Source of the DNA: Archaeoglobales archaeon
Lineage (GTDB): Archaea; Halobacteriota; Archaeoglobi; Archaeoglobales; Archaeoglobaceae
Length of the DNA: 34,703 nucleotides
Assembly: GCA_003662995.1 (NCBI GenBank)
Contig: QMZC01000016.1
Location: 1 to 34,703, forward strand
Direction of reading: 5' to 3'
The notes under the pieces are model-generated. The model did not search any database. It was not told where the DNA came from and saw only the letters and a list, made by a program, of their open reading frames with translations. The position numbers and the translations under genes are program-made. This document shows, piece by piece, positions 1,868 to 32,655 of the stretch; the first letter of the stretch is position 1; every line of letters starts with the position of its first letter.

Positions 1868-2473
1868 ATGAAGTTCAAATGTCATCAATACACTTGGGAG
1901 GACATTAGAGAGCTTTGCAGAGTGTTGTCCAAGAAAATTAGAGGTGCTGGTTTTAAGCCTGATGCGATAGTTGCAATTGCCAGAGGAGGGTGGGTGCCAG
2001 CAAGGATTCTGTGCGACTTTTTGAATATTAGAGATTTGTACAGCGTTAAAACGGAGCATTGGGGAATGGTTGCAACGGAGACGGGAGAAGCAAGAATTAC
2101 ACATCCGTTAAATGTTGATTTTAGTGGAAAGAACGTTCTGGTTGTGGATGATGTTGCAGACACTGGCGAGACTGTAGAATTAGTTGCTGAACACGTCAAA
2201 AGCTTGAATGCAAGGGAAGTAAAAATAGCGGTTATTGATTTTAAGCACACCTCAAAGTTTGAGCCAGACTTCTTTGCCAATGAAATGAAGGAGTGGAAGT
2301 GGATCGTTTATCCTTGGAGCTTGCGAGAAGATTTAAGGGATTTAATTATTAAAATTGGGATTAAAGATGTGAAAAAGCTAAAAGAGATTTTGGAGAAAGA
2401 GTATGAATTTTTTGTTGATGAAAACCTAATTGAAGACGTATTGAATGATGAGTGGTATGAATGGGATTGGTGA
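1868..2473 (+). CDS. Purine-type phosphoribosyltransferase (COG2236-like)
   Basis: A 201-residue type I phosphoribosyltransferase. It transfers a base onto PRPP to make a nucleotide; hypoxanthine or guanine is the likely substrate given the neighbour, but xanthine is possible. The PRPP loop VLVVDDVADTGET sits near the middle, preceded by the IVAIARGGWVPARIL motif that binds pyrophosphate. The C-terminal third (KWIVYPWSLREDLRDLI and the long helical tail) matches the archaeal COG2236 form rather than classical HPRT. Start ATG 1868 has AT-rich TATA-like sequence (TTATAAATTAA, about 1840-1850) at leaderless distance. The last 29 bases overlap adenine deaminase, so the two form a purine salvage operon: adenine to hypoxanthine to IMP. 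Confidence 0.82.
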   Translation: MKFKCHQYTWEDIRELCRVLSKKIRGAGFKPDAIVAIARGGWVPARILCDFLNIRDLYSVKTEHWGMVATETGEARITHPLNVDFSGKNVLVVDDVADTGETVELVAEHVKSLNAREVKIAVIDFKHTSKFEPDFFANEMKEWKWIVYPWSLREDLRDLIIKIGIKDVKKLKEILEKEYEFFVDENLIEDVLNDEWYEWDW

Positions 2474-9472: not shown

Positions 9473-9616
9473 ATGAGAAGCATGAATTATGGCTATCGCA
9501 ATTTTATCGTTTTTCTCAATCATTTTGTACTTGTTTACAGCGTACTTTACCCTTTTCTCAAAATCCTTTATGAAGTGTTTTTTACAGAGATGCCTGTACT
9601 ATTTGGATACTCATAA
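9473..9616 (+). CDS. Possible 47-residue membrane peptide
   Basis: ATG 9473 opens a 47-codon frame whose middle is hydrophobic (FIVFLNHFVLVYSVLYPFLK) and could span the membrane once. A second overlapping frame from 9489 is also hydrophobic (MAIAILSFFSIILYLF), so the signal may only reflect T-rich DNA. There is no ribosome-binding site of note; the end overlaps the convergent nuclease-domain frame by six bases. The gap 9408-9610 otherwise shows nothing. Confidence 0.2.
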   Translation: MRSMNYGYRNFIVFLNHFVLVYSVLYPFLKILYEVFFTEMPVLFGYS

Positions 9617-10294
9617 TTCGATCCCTATCGGATATGCTTCAATAAATCCCTCTCTCCAAAGTTTTGCTGGATTAGGAATCTTTTCTAGCTTTACTTCTTC
9701 TGTCCCAGCACCGTAAACTCTGTATATATAAAATTTATCTCCCTTTTCTTTCATGAGTTTCCATTGATCTTTTGACATTGTGAACCATGCTTTTCCATAT
9801 TCTTTCGTGGATTTTACCTCGATAAAAATCTCTTCTCCGTTTTCTATAACTTTTATATCGTAATGCTCTCCACTTTCTCCATTTTTATTTAACCAAATGA
9901 TTTCCACTACTATGTTCCCATTTTTTTGCAATTTAAACCCTTGGTCAGTTTCCAAGATAATACTGGAGTATTTTCCAAGAAGGTCCTCAAAGGTTATGTC
10001 ATCTTCAATTTTGAAGCCAAAGCATTCTAATTTTTCCTTTAAAATACAATACAAAGCATACTTTTCCCCCTCTCGCCCAATGTCTCTTCTTGCTTTTTCA
10101 CTCAAAATTTCTGTAGGTTGTGCCCCACTCTTTGATGTTCTTGTAGCATGTACTTTCCCTGCTGAAGCTCCATCTTCGTTAATTTCTTTTTTGGCCTCTT
10201 GCTTTGGCAAATATTCTTTTATCCGGATGGGAACTTTTTCAGCGGGAATTTCTGGAGTCCATTCTTTCTCTTTTATTTTATCAAAACATCTTCG
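9611..10294 (-). pseudogene. C-terminal NOV/DUF3883 nuclease-like domain, cut off from its ATPase
   Basis: This 227-codon segment follows the stop at 10295-10297 in the same frame as the upstream giant gene. It begins with a proline- and lysine-rich linker (WTPEIPAEKVPIRIKEYLPK), then an alanine/serine-rich stretch, and then a DUF3883 (NO VEIN C-terminal) domain: ARRDIGREGEKYALYCILKE, later HYDIKVIENGEEIFIEVKST. The D...EVK pattern is that of PD-(D/E)xK nucleases. No ATG or ribosome-binding site starts it; the first usable codon is TTG 10210 in the middle of the linker. I infer that it is the natural end of the 10295-14368 protein, separated by a nonsense codon or by two compensating indels. 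Confidence 0.7.
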
Positions 10295-13200
10295 TCAGTT
10301 TCGGTTACTCCTTGCTCTCCTGCTAATTCTGTTAGCGGTTTGAGGAGTGGTTTCTGTGGCCATTGAAGATGATATTTTTCCAGCTCTTTCATCTTCTCTT
10401 TTAAATGAAGTTTTTTCTGATTCCTCTTCTTTCTTTTCTTTTTGTTCTATTTTCCTAATTTCAGAGACTTTCTTCAAAATAATCATCTCAGTTTCAGGTA
10501 GTTCGCCTATATTTTGGATTTTCATAATTTGCTCTATTTTGGAAGTGTCTGTGTTCATAACTAGCAATAAAAACGAATCAAGACCCTTGATTTTGCCAAA
10601 CAGTTTAGAAAATTCTATTGCAAGGTGATTTATATTTGTACTATCTTTAATGATATATATACTATTATCATAGAGAATACAATTTTTCTTAGTAACCTTA
10701 TCAATCTTTTTCCATTCATTAACATTTATTGAATATTTAACTTTTAGATTGTCAGTAACATAAACTTCAATTGCCCCAATTTTCTCAAGTATCCCGCTTT
10801 TCTTAAGTTCTTCATATACCGGATTCTCTCTCCAGTAAAGATATCGTAAAACATACGGTACAACAGTTTGGATGAGTTGGGTAAGTTTTTTATCCTTTGA
10901 GTATTTCGTCTCTTCGAGTACTGGCTTAGTCTCAACACTTTCAGATAGATAACGGGGGCCACAAGCTTTAATGAAGAATTTAATTCTATCTGGATGATAA
11001 CCCTCTGGTAACCAGAGAAAACCGATATCTTCTTCATCCTTAAATAATTCATAAAGCTCATTATTATCGTTTATGAAAACAGCTCCATCGTTGGACCAGA
11101 ACTCACTTTTATTAGTGAGAAAAATCGGTTTTTTGATGAAATCATTCCACCAATCTTCCTGAGATATAGGATTTTCAACTTTATCGGGATTTAAGTTACG
11201 GTTCAGTTCTTCGTATATTCTTATGATTATCTTTTTATCTTCGTTTGATATCTCGCTCTTTTCAGAGATAGAGCATAAAACATCCGCATAATCTTTGGGG
11301 ATTGGTTTCTCACTTATTCCAAGTTTTTCTACGAAGAATTTCTTAAGTTTTGGATAATGCTTTTCTAAATATATCCTATTTTTACCGAAGATATTGCTTA
11401 CATCTCTCCACAAAACTTCATTTTCCCGATAATATTTCTTATCTGTGTCAGGAACAAAAATTAGAGGACTATTGGTAAATTCTTCTTTGATTCTCTCGCT
11501 ATCTTCTTCAAAATGCTCATCTAAGAATTTATATAATTTCTCAAATTTTTGTTCATCTTCACTTTTTCGCTCAATGAGTGCTTTTAAATAATTTAACACA
11601 CCCTCTACATTTGCTTCTGTATTGATGCCTAAAGTTTTGATGAAGTCTTCATTTTTAATCTCTACTGCCAGATACGGAACAGTATCCCCTAAAACTTCTC
11701 TATTTTCGTTAGAATCTAAAAATACTTCGCAAGGTCTGCATAAACCTTTGGTAGTGGGAACCCATCGAAGATTTTGTAGCAACAATAAGAATGTGGACTT
11801 CGTCTCCCTTTTACTCCATGCCGGTTGACTTTGACCAGTATACCTATAATAATAATTACATTTTAAGTATTTCTTATACTTTTCCCAATCTTGTTCAAAA
11901 CCATTAAATAACCTCTTGCAGGTCTCTATTTTTCTTGTTTCATCATCGCAGTCCTCTATTTTTTCGATAATTTTTTGAAAATCTTCACTTATCCAGTCAT
12001 CACCAATGTAATAACCTTCGTGGGCATCGACCCAATCTTCATCTTTCCATAATGTATCTTTCTTTTTCCACTGAGGTATATATTTCCGAGTAACTTGTCC
12101 AACATACCAATAACTCGGATTTTCAGTCTCTGGATCCTTCTCAACTCTTAGAAAGGTATTTACTCCTATACGCTCAAAAAAGTTCCTCCACTCTGCTATA
12201 ACCTTTTCCTTATCTTCTTTAATTTCTTTTAACCGTTCTTCAATTTTTCTGACCTCTTTCCTATGTTTCTTTTTCCATTTCTTACTCTTTTCCTTTAATT
12301 TATTTTCTAATTCAGTTACCTCTTTATCGAGTCTCTCAAGGATGTCTTTGATATAACAAGGATGTACAAAACTTACATCTATGCCCTTAAATAATTCTTC
12401 TAAATTATTCTCGTTTCCGTAAATCTTTGGCAAGTATATGTTCTCTGGATAATCATACCCTTCTTTTCCTTCATCATCTTTGTTAATACGAATGAGAAGC
12501 GATTTTTTAAGGCGTTTTAATGGATCGTCTTTAGTTTCCCAAGATGCTTTACTGGCATTTAGCCTTCTATCACTTTCTCTTTCGTATTTGTCTATATTAT
12601 CTTTGATGTACCTAATATATCCAATCAAAGTCCTTGAGTCCTTCTGTTTCCAGTCTTCAGCTTCATAAACAGGTAAGACATGGTTTTCAATAATTTCGTA
12701 AGGGTCTGCTTGTTTAAGCCCTAATCTTTTGAGAAATTCTAAAATCTTATCCCTCTCTTCTCTCTCTCGTTCTAAAATGACATCTATAATGTCCTTTTTA
12801 ATCACTCTAAGTTCACTCTCAAAGCCGTACATTGTTTTCTTTTCCAATGGGAAGAATATGGCTCCCTCATTTATAGAAGTCAGTTTCCCATTTTCCAATT
12901 TTATAATACAAAGATTTTTTAGCCGTTCTAATTGCTCGTCAGACAACTTTTTCTTGCTAAGATATCTAAATAGATTTGCAAACCATTCATCATTCTGCTT
13001 TTTAACCCACTCAGTTTTTTCTAAACACTCAATCAAGTTACCAATTGAAAAATCTCTAACTCCCAACTTGTGAAGGATCGATTTTTTAGCTTTTATTTTC
13101 TCTGATAAGTACTCTTTTTCGAAGAATTTTTGCAAATCTTTATTCGGTACAATTTTCTTTATTTCTTCATCCCCTATCCAAACTTCTGAAGGTTTTTTCC

Positions 13201-14368
13201 ATTTATTCGCTTCTGTTAAAATGCACTCTTCTTCTCTGAGTCTTTCATATATTTGTTCCACTAGTAGTATGAAGAATTCGTCTTTAACTTCATCGAGGGC
13301 GAGATAGTCATAAAAGCTGTACTTTAGTTTTTCATCGTTTTTAAATTCCTTGACAGCATCTAAAAACACTTCTACAATGGAATCTCTAATCCACTCATTC
13401 CATTTATTGTCTTTGATTATATCTTCACGAGTTATTGGTAGGAGGAAGTCGGCTTGAATGATAAACTTAAATCCATACTTGCGAACTGGAAGGAATGCAA
13501 AGACAAATTGTTCATTGGAAGTGTCAGGAGAGCGATCTTCATTTAAGGGAAATGCCAAGACGATCTCTGTCTCACTAATATCCTTTCGTCTTTCTTCATC
13601 TATATCCTGCGGAATCCCAAATAACTTTTTAATTACTTTCCAATAACTTTTTCTTTTACCATAAATAACCTCAACTATTCCATCTTTTTCATATCTCTCT
13701 ATTTTTACAACCCTATTCTTATTTCTCTCTTCTATCTCAATTATCTTCAATTTTTTAAGGAATAACAAAAGTGATGGATGGATTTCTTCAATATATTTGC
13801 TAATCTCGTTTTTTAGTTCAGGTTTAAGATAAAGAACAATATTTGTTTGCTTTGGATCGACGAAATCCGGAACATTATCAATCCATTTTGGGACAATCAT
13901 AGATATCGGATTGTTTTCCTCATAGCTGAAACCAAATTGAAATCCATTTGAATATATCTGGACTTCATTTGCCACCATAAAAACAGATTTAAATCCAATA
14001 CCTTTTTCACCTACGTACCCGAGAGCTTTTGTTTTTCGGCTACTGCCCACACCACATAAGTCTTTAACATCCTCTTTATCAAAGCCACTCTCGTTGTTTT
14101 GAATTATTAAACGATCAGAATCTACGATAAATCTAATTTTAGGTTTGATATCCTCCTCGTATTTATTGTCTTCAGCATTCTGGATTAACTCGAAGATAAA
14201 ATGAGGGTTTCGTGTATGAATTTCTTTGGCAAGTTTAGCAGCATCTTTCAAAATCTTCTCTTTATCATCTAACATACGCTTTTGTTCGATCGTCCAATCT
14301 TTAGTATCAAGTCCTATTCCAAATCTGATTTTTCGAATATCATCAATAACTTTTTTAGGAGATTGCAT
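10295..14368 (-). CDS. Giant sacsin/NO VEIN-like Hsp90-type ATPase, probable defence protein
   Basis: 1357 residues from ATG 14368, chosen over GTG 14377 because AGGTGA sits 5-6 bases before it. The N-terminal 200 residues are a Bergerat-fold (Hsp90-like) ATPase: FIFELIQNAEDN near residue 60-68, NNESGFDKEDVKDL, then GVGSSRK and YVGEKGIGFKSVF, matching the N, G1 and G2 boxes of sacsin-type ATPases. The middle 1000 residues are helical and highly charged, including a coiled coil around ENKLKEKSKKWKKKHRKE, with no motif I can name. Relatives often end in a DUF3883 nuclease domain, and that domain follows directly downstream in the same frame. Proteins of this type are common in archaeal and bacterial defence islands; that role is inference here. 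The gene is AT-rich and stands alone between housekeeping genes. Confidence 0.72.
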   Translation of the reverse strand: MQSPKKVIDDIRKIRFGIGLDTKDWTIEQKRMLDDKEKILKDAAKLAKEIHTRNPHFIFELIQNAEDNKYEEDIKPKIRFIVDSDRLIIQNNESGFDKEDVKDLCGVGSSRKTKALGYVGEKGIGFKSVFMVANEVQIYSNGFQFGFSYEENNPISMIVPKWIDNVPDFVDPKQTNIVLYLKPELKNEISKYIEEIHPSLLLFLKKLKIIEIEERNKNRVVKIERYEKDGIVEVIYGKRKSYWKVIKKLFGIPQDIDEERRKDISETEIVLAFPLNEDRSPDTSNEQFVFAFLPVRKYGFKFIIQADFLLPITREDIIKDNKWNEWIRDSIVEVFLDAVKEFKNDEKLKYSFYDYLALDEVKDEFFILLVEQIYERLREEECILTEANKWKKPSEVWIGDEEIKKIVPNKDLQKFFEKEYLSEKIKAKKSILHKLGVRDFSIGNLIECLEKTEWVKKQNDEWFANLFRYLSKKKLSDEQLERLKNLCIIKLENGKLTSINEGAIFFPLEKKTMYGFESELRVIKKDIIDVILEREREERDKILEFLKRLGLKQADPYEIIENHVLPVYEAEDWKQKDSRTLIGYIRYIKDNIDKYERESDRRLNASKASWETKDDPLKRLKKSLLIRINKDDEGKEGYDYPENIYLPKIYGNENNLEELFKGIDVSFVHPCYIKDILERLDKEVTELENKLKEKSKKWKKKHRKEVRKIEERLKEIKEDKEKVIAEWRNFFERIGVNTFLRVEKDPETENPSYWYVGQVTRKYIPQWKKKDTLWKDEDWVDAHEGYYIGDDWISEDFQKIIEKIEDCDDETRKIETCKRLFNGFEQDWEKYKKYLKCNYYYRYTGQSQPAWSKRETKSTFLLLLQNLRWVPTTKGLCRPCEVFLDSNENREVLGDTVPYLAVEIKNEDFIKTLGINTEANVEGVLNYLKALIERKSEDEQKFEKLYKFLDEHFEEDSERIKEEFTNSPLIFVPDTDKKYYRENEVLWRDVSNIFGKNRIYLEKHYPKLKKFFVEKLGISEKPIPKDYADVLCSISEKSEISNEDKKIIIRIYEELNRNLNPDKVENPISQEDWWNDFIKKPIFLTNKSEFWSNDGAVFINDNNELYELFKDEEDIGFLWLPEGYHPDRIKFFIKACGPRYLSESVETKPVLEETKYSKDKKLTQLIQTVVPYVLRYLYWRENPVYEELKKSGILEKIGAIEVYVTDNLKVKYSINVNEWKKIDKVTKKNCILYDNSIYIIKDSTNINHLAIEFSKLFGKIKGLDSFLLLVMNTDTSKIEQIMKIQNIGELPETEMIILKKVSEIRKIEQKEKKEEESEKTSFKREDERAGKISSSMATETTPQTANRISRRARSNRN

Positions 14369-14473
14369 ATTTTTCACCTGATCTAAACCTCTTCATCTTT
14401 CCTATTTACAAACACGAGAGAGACTAGATACTTCCTTTGTATGGATATCAGATGAGGTGTCATTAAGTTAAAT

Positions 14474-29651: not shown

Positions 29652-30241
29652 TGTCTTTATTTTTCCGTGACGATATAAAAGTTAATCGAAAAGTTGGGGC
29701 TTCACAAATTGTGGTGAAAAATACTGTGCAGAAAAAGCAAGTTTTGTGAGAATAATTATGAATGAGAAAATCGAATTTTCAAATATAAGGGCAAATCAAT
29801 GTAACCCAAGAGTTGATTAGCATGACTGCTACTACACGATGTATATGGGCGAATTAAGGTAGTTGAGAACATGACTATTGGAATTATTTGTATACGTGTG
29901 GTGAAGAGCAAAATCCTTATTTCTGGTATTCAGTCGACTGAGTTACAGGGAAAAAATAACCAACAACTTGCTGAAAATTAGAAGGTATAGGGCTGCCATC
30001 AAATATTGAAGGTATTAAAAAGATTTCAAAGTTAAAAACATCAAATGAATACAGACTGCATCAGTAAGGCAACTTTTAAAAAGTGGTTGATAGACAACTT
30101 AATTTAATGAAGATAGTAAAAGGGAAAAGTGTTCTGGATGGTTTACCAAACTGGAAAATACTAAAAATAACAATAACAGCGAACCTAAATTAGTTAATAT
30201 GGTTAGTGCTGTATTAAAAAAACACTTGAAAGTTATATTTT
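29652..30241. other. 590 bases without a gene
   Basis: Only short frames of about 20 codons occur (for example 29758-29820). Composition is AT-rich and stop-dense on both strands. No tRNA, CRISPR or terminal inverted repeat was found. The only positive feature is TATTAAAA at 30212-30219, 26 bases before the next ATG. It may be decayed accessory DNA. Confidence 0.5.
30212..30219 (+). promoter_or_regulatory. TATA box of the PRTase-DprA-like operon
   Basis: TATTAAAA centred 26 bases before ATG 30242, leaderless spacing. There is no ribosome-binding site before that ATG, which agrees with a leaderless message. Confidence 0.5.
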
Positions 30242-31273
30242 ATGAGTCAAAGCTCTAAAAACCAAAATCCCATAATCCTTTTCATAAAAATTTATGTTAG
30301 CATATTGATTCTTTTATTCATTGTGAGCTTTATATCGACAGGTGGTCAAATTATTAATTTATTGATTAAAAATGACATACACACCATACAGGGCCTCGCT
30401 ATTTCGACTCTAATTTTAACAATACTTGTGTTCACAATTTTTGTCATAATCCAAACTCAAAAAAGCAAAAAAAGAAATGATATTGGGTTTAAATCCATAA
30501 ACCAAAAAAATAAAGAAGAATTGATTCTTGAATTGGAGGATTACAATCAAACAAATCATTCAGAACTGAGCGACGTGTTAGATTTGGAAAGGTGGAGCTT
30601 AGCTGAAGACTCCTTCTATGATTTGGGGTTCAACTACTACAGCAATAGCAATGATACAAAGGTTTTAAGCTATCAAAGTGATGCGGCGACACATTATAAG
30701 ATTGACCCAATAGAGGCTCAAAATAGAGCTTTTTCAGCTCCACATTATTACCTCGGTGATTACATTCCAAAATGGACGAACGCTCAAGATGAGTTTTCTC
30801 AGTTAATACTTTTATTCAAGAATTTGACACAGTTACCTTATGTTACACAAAAAGATTTAATTGAGTATTTTGTTAACAAACTCGTTTCGGTAATTAAAGA
30901 GAAAGAAATTAACGCCAATGTGATTATACCTATTCCTTCTAGTAGAGCATATGTTATCGGTAAAGGACACATTGAACTCTGTCGTCAAGTTGCTAGATTA
31001 TTAGGTATTGAAGATGGTACTGGAATCCTTAATAGAATTAAAACAATTCAGAAATCTTCAATATCTCCCTCAAAGAGTAGACCATCATATAATGAACACT
31101 ATGACTCAATCAAAGTAGCTCCTTGGACTAATTTAGAAGGCAAAAGAGTTGTATTGTTCGATGATGTTTATACGACTGGAAATACTGCACGTGCTGCAGC
31201 CCATAAAATTTTTGAAGCCGGAGCAGAAAGAGTTTGGATAATCACACTTGGAAAGACAAAGGTGATATTTTGA
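30242..31273 (+). CDS. Two-TM, membrane-anchored ComF-like phosphoribosyltransferase
   Basis: 343 residues in three parts. Residues about 10-32 and 47-70 are two membrane helices (LFIKIYVSILILLFIVSFI; GLAISTLILTILVFTIFVI), so the rest hangs in the cytosol. Residues about 75-205 are an acidic region I cannot assign (EELILELEDYNQTNHSELSD, LGFNYYSNSND). The last 130 are a ComF-type phosphoribosyltransferase: NVIIPIPSSRAYVIGKGHIE, QVARLLGI, NRIKTIQKSSISPSKSRPSY, then the PRPP loop VVLFDDVYTTGNTA and GAERVWIITLGK. Enzyme activity is plausible since the two aspartates and TTG are kept. ComF is known from DNA uptake, but a two-TM anchor is not part of that protein. The stop TGA overlaps the TTG start of the DprA-like gene. 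Confidence 0.8.
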   Translation: MSQSSKNQNPIILFIKIYVSILILLFIVSFISTGGQIINLLIKNDIHTIQGLAISTLILTILVFTIFVIIQTQKSKKRNDIGFKSINQKNKEELILELEDYNQTNHSELSDVLDLERWSLAEDSFYDLGFNYYSNSNDTKVLSYQSDAATHYKIDPIEAQNRAFSAPHYYLGDYIPKWTNAQDEFSQLILLFKNLTQLPYVTQKDLIEYFVNKLVSVIKEKEINANVIIPIPSSRAYVIGKGHIELCRQVARLLGIEDGTGILNRIKTIQKSSISPSKSRPSYNEHYDSIKVAPWTNLEGKRVVLFDDVYTTGNTARAAAHKIFEAGAERVWIITLGKTKVIF

Positions 31274-31923
31274 CTCAGAAAAAACTCCTTGACTACGGTG
31301 AGAGTAAAGATTCCATCCATCAAAATATTAAAAAGATTGATATAATTTCGACAGATTACCCCTATCTTTTGAGACATATTAGGGATCCCCCAAAGATTCT
31401 ATATGCTTTAGGAAATATAAAATTGCTCAATGAACCATCAATTGCAATTGTTGGTACAAGAAAACCAAGCCAAAAAGGTAAGGAATATGCTAAAATTATA
31501 GCAGAATTTTACTCAAAAAAAGGCTTTGTAATCGTTTCTGGACTTGCACAAGGAATCGACACTTTAGCTATAAAGACCACACTGAATAATGGTGGAAAAG
31601 TAATTTGCGTTATTCCATCTTTAAGGAATATCACACCAAAGAAGAACGTAGAATTAGCTAATGATATCCTAAAGGATAATGGGCTACTTATTTCTGAGTC
31701 CCTAGATGAAAGGATAAAAAAGTATCAATTTGTAAAAAGAAATCGGATAATAAGTGGTCTGTCTTTTTGTGTTGTTGTAGTTGAATCAAACATTAGGGGA
31801 GGGACTATGCACACAGTTGAATATGCAAAAAAACAAAGAAGACTAATTATCGTAGCAGATTTAGACGCTATAGGGAATGAGTCTCTAAAAAAAGAGGGGT
31901 TTCCCGTTTTTCGAATACATTGA
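31270..31923 (+). CDS. Minimal DprA/Smf-like Rossmann protein (SLOG fold)
   Basis: 217 residues from TTG 31270. I choose this because GGTGAT stands three bases upstream and TTGA overlaps the previous stop; a longer frame begins at ATG 31234 inside the PRTase gene. The DprA core is clear: SIAIVGTRKPSQKGKEYA, FVIVSGLAQGIDTLAIKTTL, GGKVICVIPSL, GLLISESLDE, VKRNRIISGLSFCVVVVES and GGTMHTVEYAKKQRR. There is only a short N-terminal region (DIISTDYPYLLRHIRDPP) instead of the SAM-like domain and no C-terminal winged helix. DprA loads RecA on incoming single-stranded DNA in bacteria; related SLOG domains bind nucleotides in conflict systems. Co-expression with the PRTase suggests a shared nucleotide ligand. 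Confidence 0.8.
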   Translation: MTQKKLLDYGESKDSIHQNIKKIDIISTDYPYLLRHIRDPPKILYALGNIKLLNEPSIAIVGTRKPSQKGKEYAKIIAEFYSKKGFVIVSGLAQGIDTLAIKTTLNNGGKVICVIPSLRNITPKKNVELANDILKDNGLLISESLDERIKKYQFVKRNRIISGLSFCVVVVESNIRGGTMHTVEYAKKQRRLIIVADLDAIGNESLKKEGFPVFRIH

Positions 31924-31989
31924 CATTAATAACATCGATAGTAAAAATCATTGCAAGTTATTAATAACTATTTTGAAAAACAAATTTTG

Positions 31990-32541
31990 TTAACAATTTT
32001 TTTCAACCACCTCTCTGGCATCTTCCTGCACCAACTCAATATCGACATCAAGAATGTCAAATGTGTCTCCTACAATAGACTTAATTCTACTTATTTTATC
32101 AAAAAAAGCTTTATCTTCTACTAATTTTGAAAATTCCTTAGCTAAATCCATTATCGATACTTCCACAATTCTACAACCTTTTGATATTAAACCGTAAGCT
32201 TTTAAAGAGTAAATTATGCTTCCCCAGAATGACTTTATCGCCTCTTCAAACTTGCCATTCTCAATCAGATTGTCGGCTTTTTCAAGTTCTTTAAGAGCAG
32301 AGTCAACATAAACAACATGCATGGGAACTCTTCTAAGATTTTCCAGTTTTTCGATTGTTATCTTATCCCCAAATATTAATTCTACTCTGCATGGGTTAAT
32401 TTGATCTTGATAAATTATGCATTTAACATGCCATTTCCCATTGTAATAAAAGCTTTCAATCCCTATCCAAGTATCAATTTTGCTTGCATCGATTTTGCTT
32501 TTTGCAGCTTTTCTTAATTCTTCAAGTATTTCGAGTTTCAT
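31990..32541 (-). CDS. Hypothetical protein with PaREP1/HEPN-like helical part
   Basis: 183 residues. The first 80 form strands (WIGIESFYYNGKWHVKCIIY, RVELIFGDKITI) of no family I know. Residues about 85-120, LEKADNLIENGKFEEAIKSF then WGSIIYSLKAYGL, match the helix pair of PaREP1/HEPN-type small proteins, common in thermophilic archaea next to nucleotidyltransferases or in toxin-antitoxin and defence settings. The HEPN catalytic RxxxxxH is not evident, so RNase activity is not supported. ATG 32541; it converges with the DprA-like gene, 66 bases apart. Confidence 0.55.
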   Translation of the reverse strand: MKLEILEELRKAAKSKIDASKIDTWIGIESFYYNGKWHVKCIIYQDQINPCRVELIFGDKITIEKLENLRRVPMHVVYVDSALKELEKADNLIENGKFEEAIKSFWGSIIYSLKAYGLISKGCRIVEVSIMDLAKEFSKLVEDKAFFDKISRIKSIVGDTFDILDVDIELVQEDAREVVEKNC

Positions 32542-32655
32542 GTCCCATTGTTACGTTGTTATTATTTTTGTTAATTATTTTGGTTAGATGAAAAACATCT
32601 TTAACTCAAGCTTCAGCAAATCTCCCAGACACACGTATTTCTTCAATAACATGTA

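Follow-up and report, generated by a model that had tools for sequence, protein, structure and literature searches.

We describe a two-gene unit in an archaeal genome that very probably constitutes a ShosTA-type toxin-antitoxin module, in a membrane-tethered variant lacking the HAD domain; we infer its function, and the toxin and antitoxin roles are predicted. The observations behind this reading are a phosphoribosyltransferase (PRTase) fold with an intact PRPP site, overlapping genes, conserved pairing, fusion of the two parts in a relative, and the lack of a ComEC match in the genome. The unusual part is the N-terminus of the predicted toxin, where two transmembrane (TM) helices and a disordered acidic linker stand in place of the HAD domain found in E. 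coli-type ShosT. None of the other ShosTA members examined has its predicted toxin fixed to the membrane by two helices. The matches are strong, which rules out chance as the origin of the sequence observation. A preliminary description of this DNA had treated the pair as an unassigned system; the name that fits it is instead ShosTA, for which phage defense (PMC9122126) and solved structures have been published. Its broader proposal, that a DprA-like protein and a PRTase are coupled in a module directed against invaders, is still the best reading.

Layout and sequence context of the two-gene unit

The window, i.e., the whole stretch of 34,703 nucleotides analyzed, is an entire contig of a draft assembly (187 contigs, 97% complete). 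Genes 1 and 2 of the unit overlap by a TTGA at the stop of gene 1 (Table 1). This overlap, the two TM helices, the acidic middle region, and the PRPP loop, all noted in the preliminary description, were confirmed, as were the 590 gene-free bases ahead of the pair. Gene 2 has an alternative TTG start at 31234; the start at 31270 is favored because a probable ribosome-binding site ends four bases 5' of it.

Table 1. Features of the two-gene unit and its leader in the window
Feature	Coordinates	Strand	Basis
AT-rich leader, 590 bases	29652..30241		Without a convincing gene
Gene 1, ShosT-like PRTase, predicted toxin	30242..31273	+	ORF with ATG start, 343 aa; ShosT profile; structure matches
TM helix 1 (aa 11-29)	30272..30328	+	Hydropathy 2.84; helix at aa 10-43 in AlphaFold model
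TM helix 2 (aa 52-70)	30395..30451	+	Hydropathy; model; alignment to the single TM helix of L071
Acidic linker, largely disordered (aa 85-150)	30494..30691	+	14 D/E versus 4 K/R; pLDDT <50 at aa 105-149
PRTase domain (about aa 155-343)	30704..31270	+	pLDDT mostly >88; Foldseek to ShosT
PRPP-binding loop DDVYTTGNT (aa 307-315)	31160..31186	+	D307, D308, and T311 invariant in 17 aligned toxins
Probable ribosome-binding site AGGTGA for gene 2	31260..31265	+	Read in the sequence
Gene 2, ShosA-like minimal DprA, predicted antitoxin	31270..31923	+	217 aa from TTG; ShosA and DNA_processg_A profiles

GC content is about 27-35% across positions of about 29850-32600, versus about 36-42% on the flanks. 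Practically nothing in 39 other genomes matches the leader, and a search of the locus for an Rfam family, a tRNA, or a clear insertion repeat found none. Comparison with a same-genus genome revealed no matching empty site; its best aminotransferase matches are just 39% identical, and the counterpart of the HEPN-like flanking gene lies there at an unrelated place. This convergent neighbor (31990-32541, minus strand) has a weak HEPN match (0.017, below the cutoff) and is 60% identical to its same-genus relative, which occurs without the pair.

Two further genes of the window were recorded. About 16 kb from the pair, a Tiamat-like defense gene (9611-14377, minus strand; TmtA, 4.7e-227) combines a sacsin-type ATPase part with a NO VEIN C-terminal part and is split by a TGA into two same-frame ORFs. 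Another PRTase gene (1868-2473, plus strand), with a weak ShosT match (7.5e-5), probably specifies an ordinary nucleobase enzyme.

A ShosT-like PRTase behind a membrane hairpin

The PADLOC ShosT model matches aa 139-340 of the gene 1 product (4.8e-24), and a PDB sequence search with the family profile placed ShosT entries among the best matches. Foldseek comparison of the gene 1 model with PDB structures returned ShosT in all top three positions (8zvc, with PRPP-Mg; 8zvd, with phosphate; and 8zvb, a third ShosTA entry), at 2.3 Å over about 153 columns, followed by PurF, OPRT, HPRT-type enzymes, and Helicobacter pylori ComF. Other profile matches were to the ComF family (1.2e-11), PsyrT (2.9e-6), and, weakly, PRTase-CE (8.7e-4); profile searches for a helicase in gene 1 gave no match. 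Mutated PRPP sites across the family had been named beforehand as evidence against the pair's proposed role; the acidic pair of the loop proved invariant in the aligned toxins. Plasmid and phage searches with gene 1 gave no match at 1e-5, and a viral structure library yielded just weak, generic PRTase matches.

Ahead of this domain, hydropathy identified two strong hydrophobic helices, and the AlphaFold model, built on a 17-row alignment, folds the region into a helical hairpin (aa 10-43 and 47-104) followed by a disordered acidic linker (aa 105-149) and a confident PRTase from about aa 155. A basic KSKKR stretch directly after TM helix 2 suggests that both ends of the hairpin would lie in the cytoplasm. 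Among the recovered PRTases, an N-terminal anchor is clear in only the window and its nearest relative, L071, whose single TM helix aligns to TM helix 2. L080, L083, and L085 contain hydrophobic stretches of lower score, those of L080 and L083 within long toxins of 795-844 aa, and the toxins of other relatives begin with a HAD domain, helicase-like or other long parts, a cysteine-rich start (L074), or no such addition. The two-TM feature is thus real and, within the data at hand, confined to the window's lineage. Absence of the two-TM part from the closest relatives, which the preliminary description had held to count against it, is found in part: a single TM helix remains in the closest relative, and most of the relatives lack TM helices altogether.

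These helices raise the question of whether the hairpin itself kills, with the PRTase acting as a sensor or gate and the two-TM part, once freed from the DprA-like protein, perforating or depolarizing the membrane like PycTM or SLATT-type effectors. Besides the strength of both helices, weak matches of aa 1-153 to PycTM (1.9e-4) and RT-SLATT (3.6e-3) speak for such an effector, although they perhaps reflect hydrophobic composition only. We regard it as improbable: the PRPP site is intact, and the PRTase is retained in the closest relative, with its one TM helix, and in the many relatives without any.

A locus in the window's genus (L147:668-2639, minus strand) carries three same-strand genes. 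One encodes a PsyrT/ShosT-like PRTase (PsyrT, 1.1e-18), another a coiled-coil protein whose TM helix is C-terminal, and the third a 274-aa protein, SLOG-like by eye, with no family match. The locus may represent a parallel design in which the membrane protein is separate.

The DprA-like partner and the distribution of the pair

Gene 2 matches Pfam DNA_processg_A (1.6e-57), the ShosA model (7.8e-64), and PsyrA (8e-34). Its match to the ShosA model is limited to positions 76-267 of 303, so that the domains to either side are missing, which bears out its initial reading as a DprA core stripped of flanking domains; the predicted antitoxin is pared to the Rossmann core. In a quick tree with weak deep branches, gene 2 joins, with full support, three proteins from the same archaeal family, apart from canonical DprA. 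All four proteins are short (206-229 aa), and the trimmed antitoxin is therefore a trait of this clade. The window's genome also holds a second, partial DprA/SLOG-like match (G000:C60:91-354; L002 and L088) of 30 bits, near a contig end.

Two ways of telling ShosA from DprA were discarded. Percent identity does not separate them (38% between gene 2 and ShosA, 40% to canonical DprA), and a match to the ShosA profile was rejected as proof on its own, as canonical DprA scores similarly. The NCBI dprA equivalog cutoff (191.15 bits) performs better than both: three canonical DprAs score above it (267-279 bits), and gene 2 (171 bits), two archaeal sisters (167-176 bits), and a ShosA from a Pseudomonas phage and a homologue from a Hymenobacter plasmid (184-186 bits) score below it. 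This dividing line is imperfect, with one Altarchaeum homologue slightly above the cutoff (199 bits).

The same scores bear on a function in DNA uptake and processing, in which ComFC and DprA would serve natural transformation. The ComF family match, the DprA core, and the presence of H. pylori ComF among the structure matches are what such a pair would offer. Both curated cutoffs are nonetheless missed (for comF, 45 versus 233.55 bits), ShosT fits gene 1 better than ComF, and the spread is patchy. No uptake gene appears in the ORF list of the window, as already remarked in the preliminary description, and no Pfam Competence (ComEC) match was found in the 97% complete draft genome. This lack of a ComEC match makes DNA uptake unlikely, and on the evidence as a whole we consider a ComFC-DprA transformation pair extremely unlikely.

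Relatives were sought with the GGTMHT signature of the antitoxin in genome and viral scans, because scans of both with a two-row toxin alignment had found no relative. The signature recovered 30 loci in species genomes of archaea and bacteria and 3 from viral contigs. Among 394 genomes surveyed in the phylum, 49 contained ShosA-profile matches, the weakest of which are probably other SLOG proteins. A gene 2 match was found in 8 of 60 relatives and was absent from the same-genus genome, a patchy distribution.

Pairing was assessed in 68 distinct relatives from archaea, bacteria, plasmids, and phages, picked by ShosA-like signatures, so that the fractions describe that family and not all DprA proteins. 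A PRTase adjoins the DprA-like gene in 54 of them, upstream in 46 and downstream in 8. Among the 14 without a detected PRTase neighbor, one is a fusion (L105) and at least two (L064 and L078) border on a contig end, which would remove a gene upstream of them; the rest look solitary, e.g., three from Peptostreptococcaceae and one from Methanoperedens beside a gyrase-like gene. Homologues are thus mainly paired, where constant solitary occurrence would have spoken against the initial proposal, and no competence context was found, in line with its view of a conserved unit independent of competence genes. The fusion, from Altarchaeum (L105:4515-6152, plus strand), joins PRTase and DprA-like parts in one protein of 545 aa, and at its sister locus L101 these two parts are encoded separately, by two genes. 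On plasmids and phages, bacterial homologues show the toxin-then-antitoxin order of the window, and one is annotated as ShosT/ShosA.

In G030, a genome of the window's own archaeal family, the ShosT-like PRTase (L069/L145) is broken by four TAA stops next to an intact DprA-like gene. This asymmetry, a single case in a draft genome, is expected of a toxin-antitoxin pair. It also weighs on the alternative of a housekeeping pair for nucleotide salvage or DNA repair, in which a membrane PRTase would work with a DprA-like helper outside defense. In keeping with housekeeping, L005 and L006 hold the pair at a shared chromosomal position, with an NTPase gene on one side and a tRNA methyltransferase-like gene on the other (names assigned by eye). 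The stop-broken PRTase, however, belongs to one of these two genomes, the window copy has different neighbors and lower GC, and the patchy distribution and the homologues on plasmids and phages also argue against it; we judge a housekeeping role highly unlikely.

Two other arrangements were observed. A separate clade from the same taxonomic order as the window (L059, L060, L061, L062, and L067) has the reversed gene order, DprA-like first and PRTase second, with the PRTase loop DDIVTRGHT where complete; in L059, the two parts each match ShosA/ShosT. L078-L084, from a single other family of the phylum, form a clade of closely related DprA-like proteins, several of which stand behind long PRTase-bearing genes (431-844 aa), an arrangement reminiscent of PsyrTA.

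Working model and comparison with known systems

The proposed mechanism is carried over in outline from the bacterial relatives, by analogy with which toxicity, neutralization, trigger, and a role in defense are predicted. The two-helix hairpin and flexible acidic linker would hold the gene 1 product, a predicted PRPP-binding PRTase toxin, at the inner membrane face, and the DprA-like protein may keep it harmless while sensing DNA. A virus or replication damage would then occupy or remove the antitoxin, and the freed toxin would act on PRPP, disturb the nucleotide pool, and stop growth of the infected cell. The anchor may confine this action to the vicinity of the membrane, which is a guess. 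The preliminary description had instead linked the two proteins by a nucleotide-made or nucleotide-sensed signal; no nucleotide second messenger is indicated, and in published work the DprA-like protein serves as an antitoxin. A further, rather doubtful idea is that a ShosT enzyme became a membrane-tethered effector in this archaeal lineage through the change at its N-terminus. Killing would then depend on membrane location, either because the enzyme acts locally on a substrate associated with the membrane or because the two TM helices form a pore that PRPP and the DprA-like partner gate.

Published work supports the outline. An E. coli DprA-PRTase pair protects against T7 and lambda (PMC9122126). 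In RqlHI, the DprA-like RqlI interacts with RqlH, whose PRTase is genotoxic when RqlI is missing; mutating the RqlH PRPP pocket largely abolishes toxicity (PMC4670107). According to a review (PMC12593503), ShosT combines PRTase and pyrophosphatase activities and disturbs purine metabolism, leading to DNA duplications and filamentation, ShosA binds DNA, and T7 Gp0.7 triggers ShosTA. The pyrophosphatase activity was not transferred to gene 1 because the HAD domain suspected to carry it is absent. ShosTA has been counted in archaea before and is commoner in Asgard archaea than in other prokaryotes (PMC11291487); therefore, its archaeal occurrence is not new. A toxicity or defense test of such a pair was not found in the literature for any archaeon.

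The presence of a predicted PRTase toxin and DprA-like antitoxin in an archaeon whose genome has no ComEC match supports the view of DprA-like genes outside competent bacteria as possible parts of immune systems. That one PRTase core carries such varied N-termini (HAD, helicase-like, cysteine-rich, and TM helices) suggests modular effectors. With the membrane-tethered HAD-less form, one can ask directly whether the PRTase domain is toxic by itself, and the natural Altarchaeum fusion lends itself to structural studies of the toxin-antitoxin complex.

Compared with known systems, the pair has in common with ShosTA the PRPP site and an operon in which the PRTase toxin precedes a DprA-like antitoxin; it differs in lacking HAD, in its two TM helices and acidic linker, in an antitoxin reduced to the Rossmann core, and in its archaeal host. 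The missing HAD, the about one-fifth of relatives without a PRTase neighbor, and the scoring of DprA by the ShosA model count against the assignment. Toxins with HAD domains are present among the relatives; HAD was not treated as defining ShosTA because short HAD-less PRTases, e.g., in Hymenobacter, also pair with DprA-like partners. In PsyrTA and RqlHI (RecQ-like helicase-PRTase), a C-terminal PRTase toxin is likewise restrained by a DprA-like partner, whereas the window pair has no helicase domain and matches these systems more weakly. ComFC and DprA have related folds (ComF-type PRTase and DprA Rossmann core), in contrast to a window pair that forms one operon, misses their curated cutoffs, and has no ComEC match in its genome. 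PRTase effectors of retrons and conflict systems (PRTase-CE) also use a PRTase in defense; the partner in the window is DprA-like, and no reverse transcriptase was seen beside the pair. The kind of system is thus already known, as ShosTA is experimentally anti-phage and reported in archaea; the membrane-tethered HAD-less form is new.
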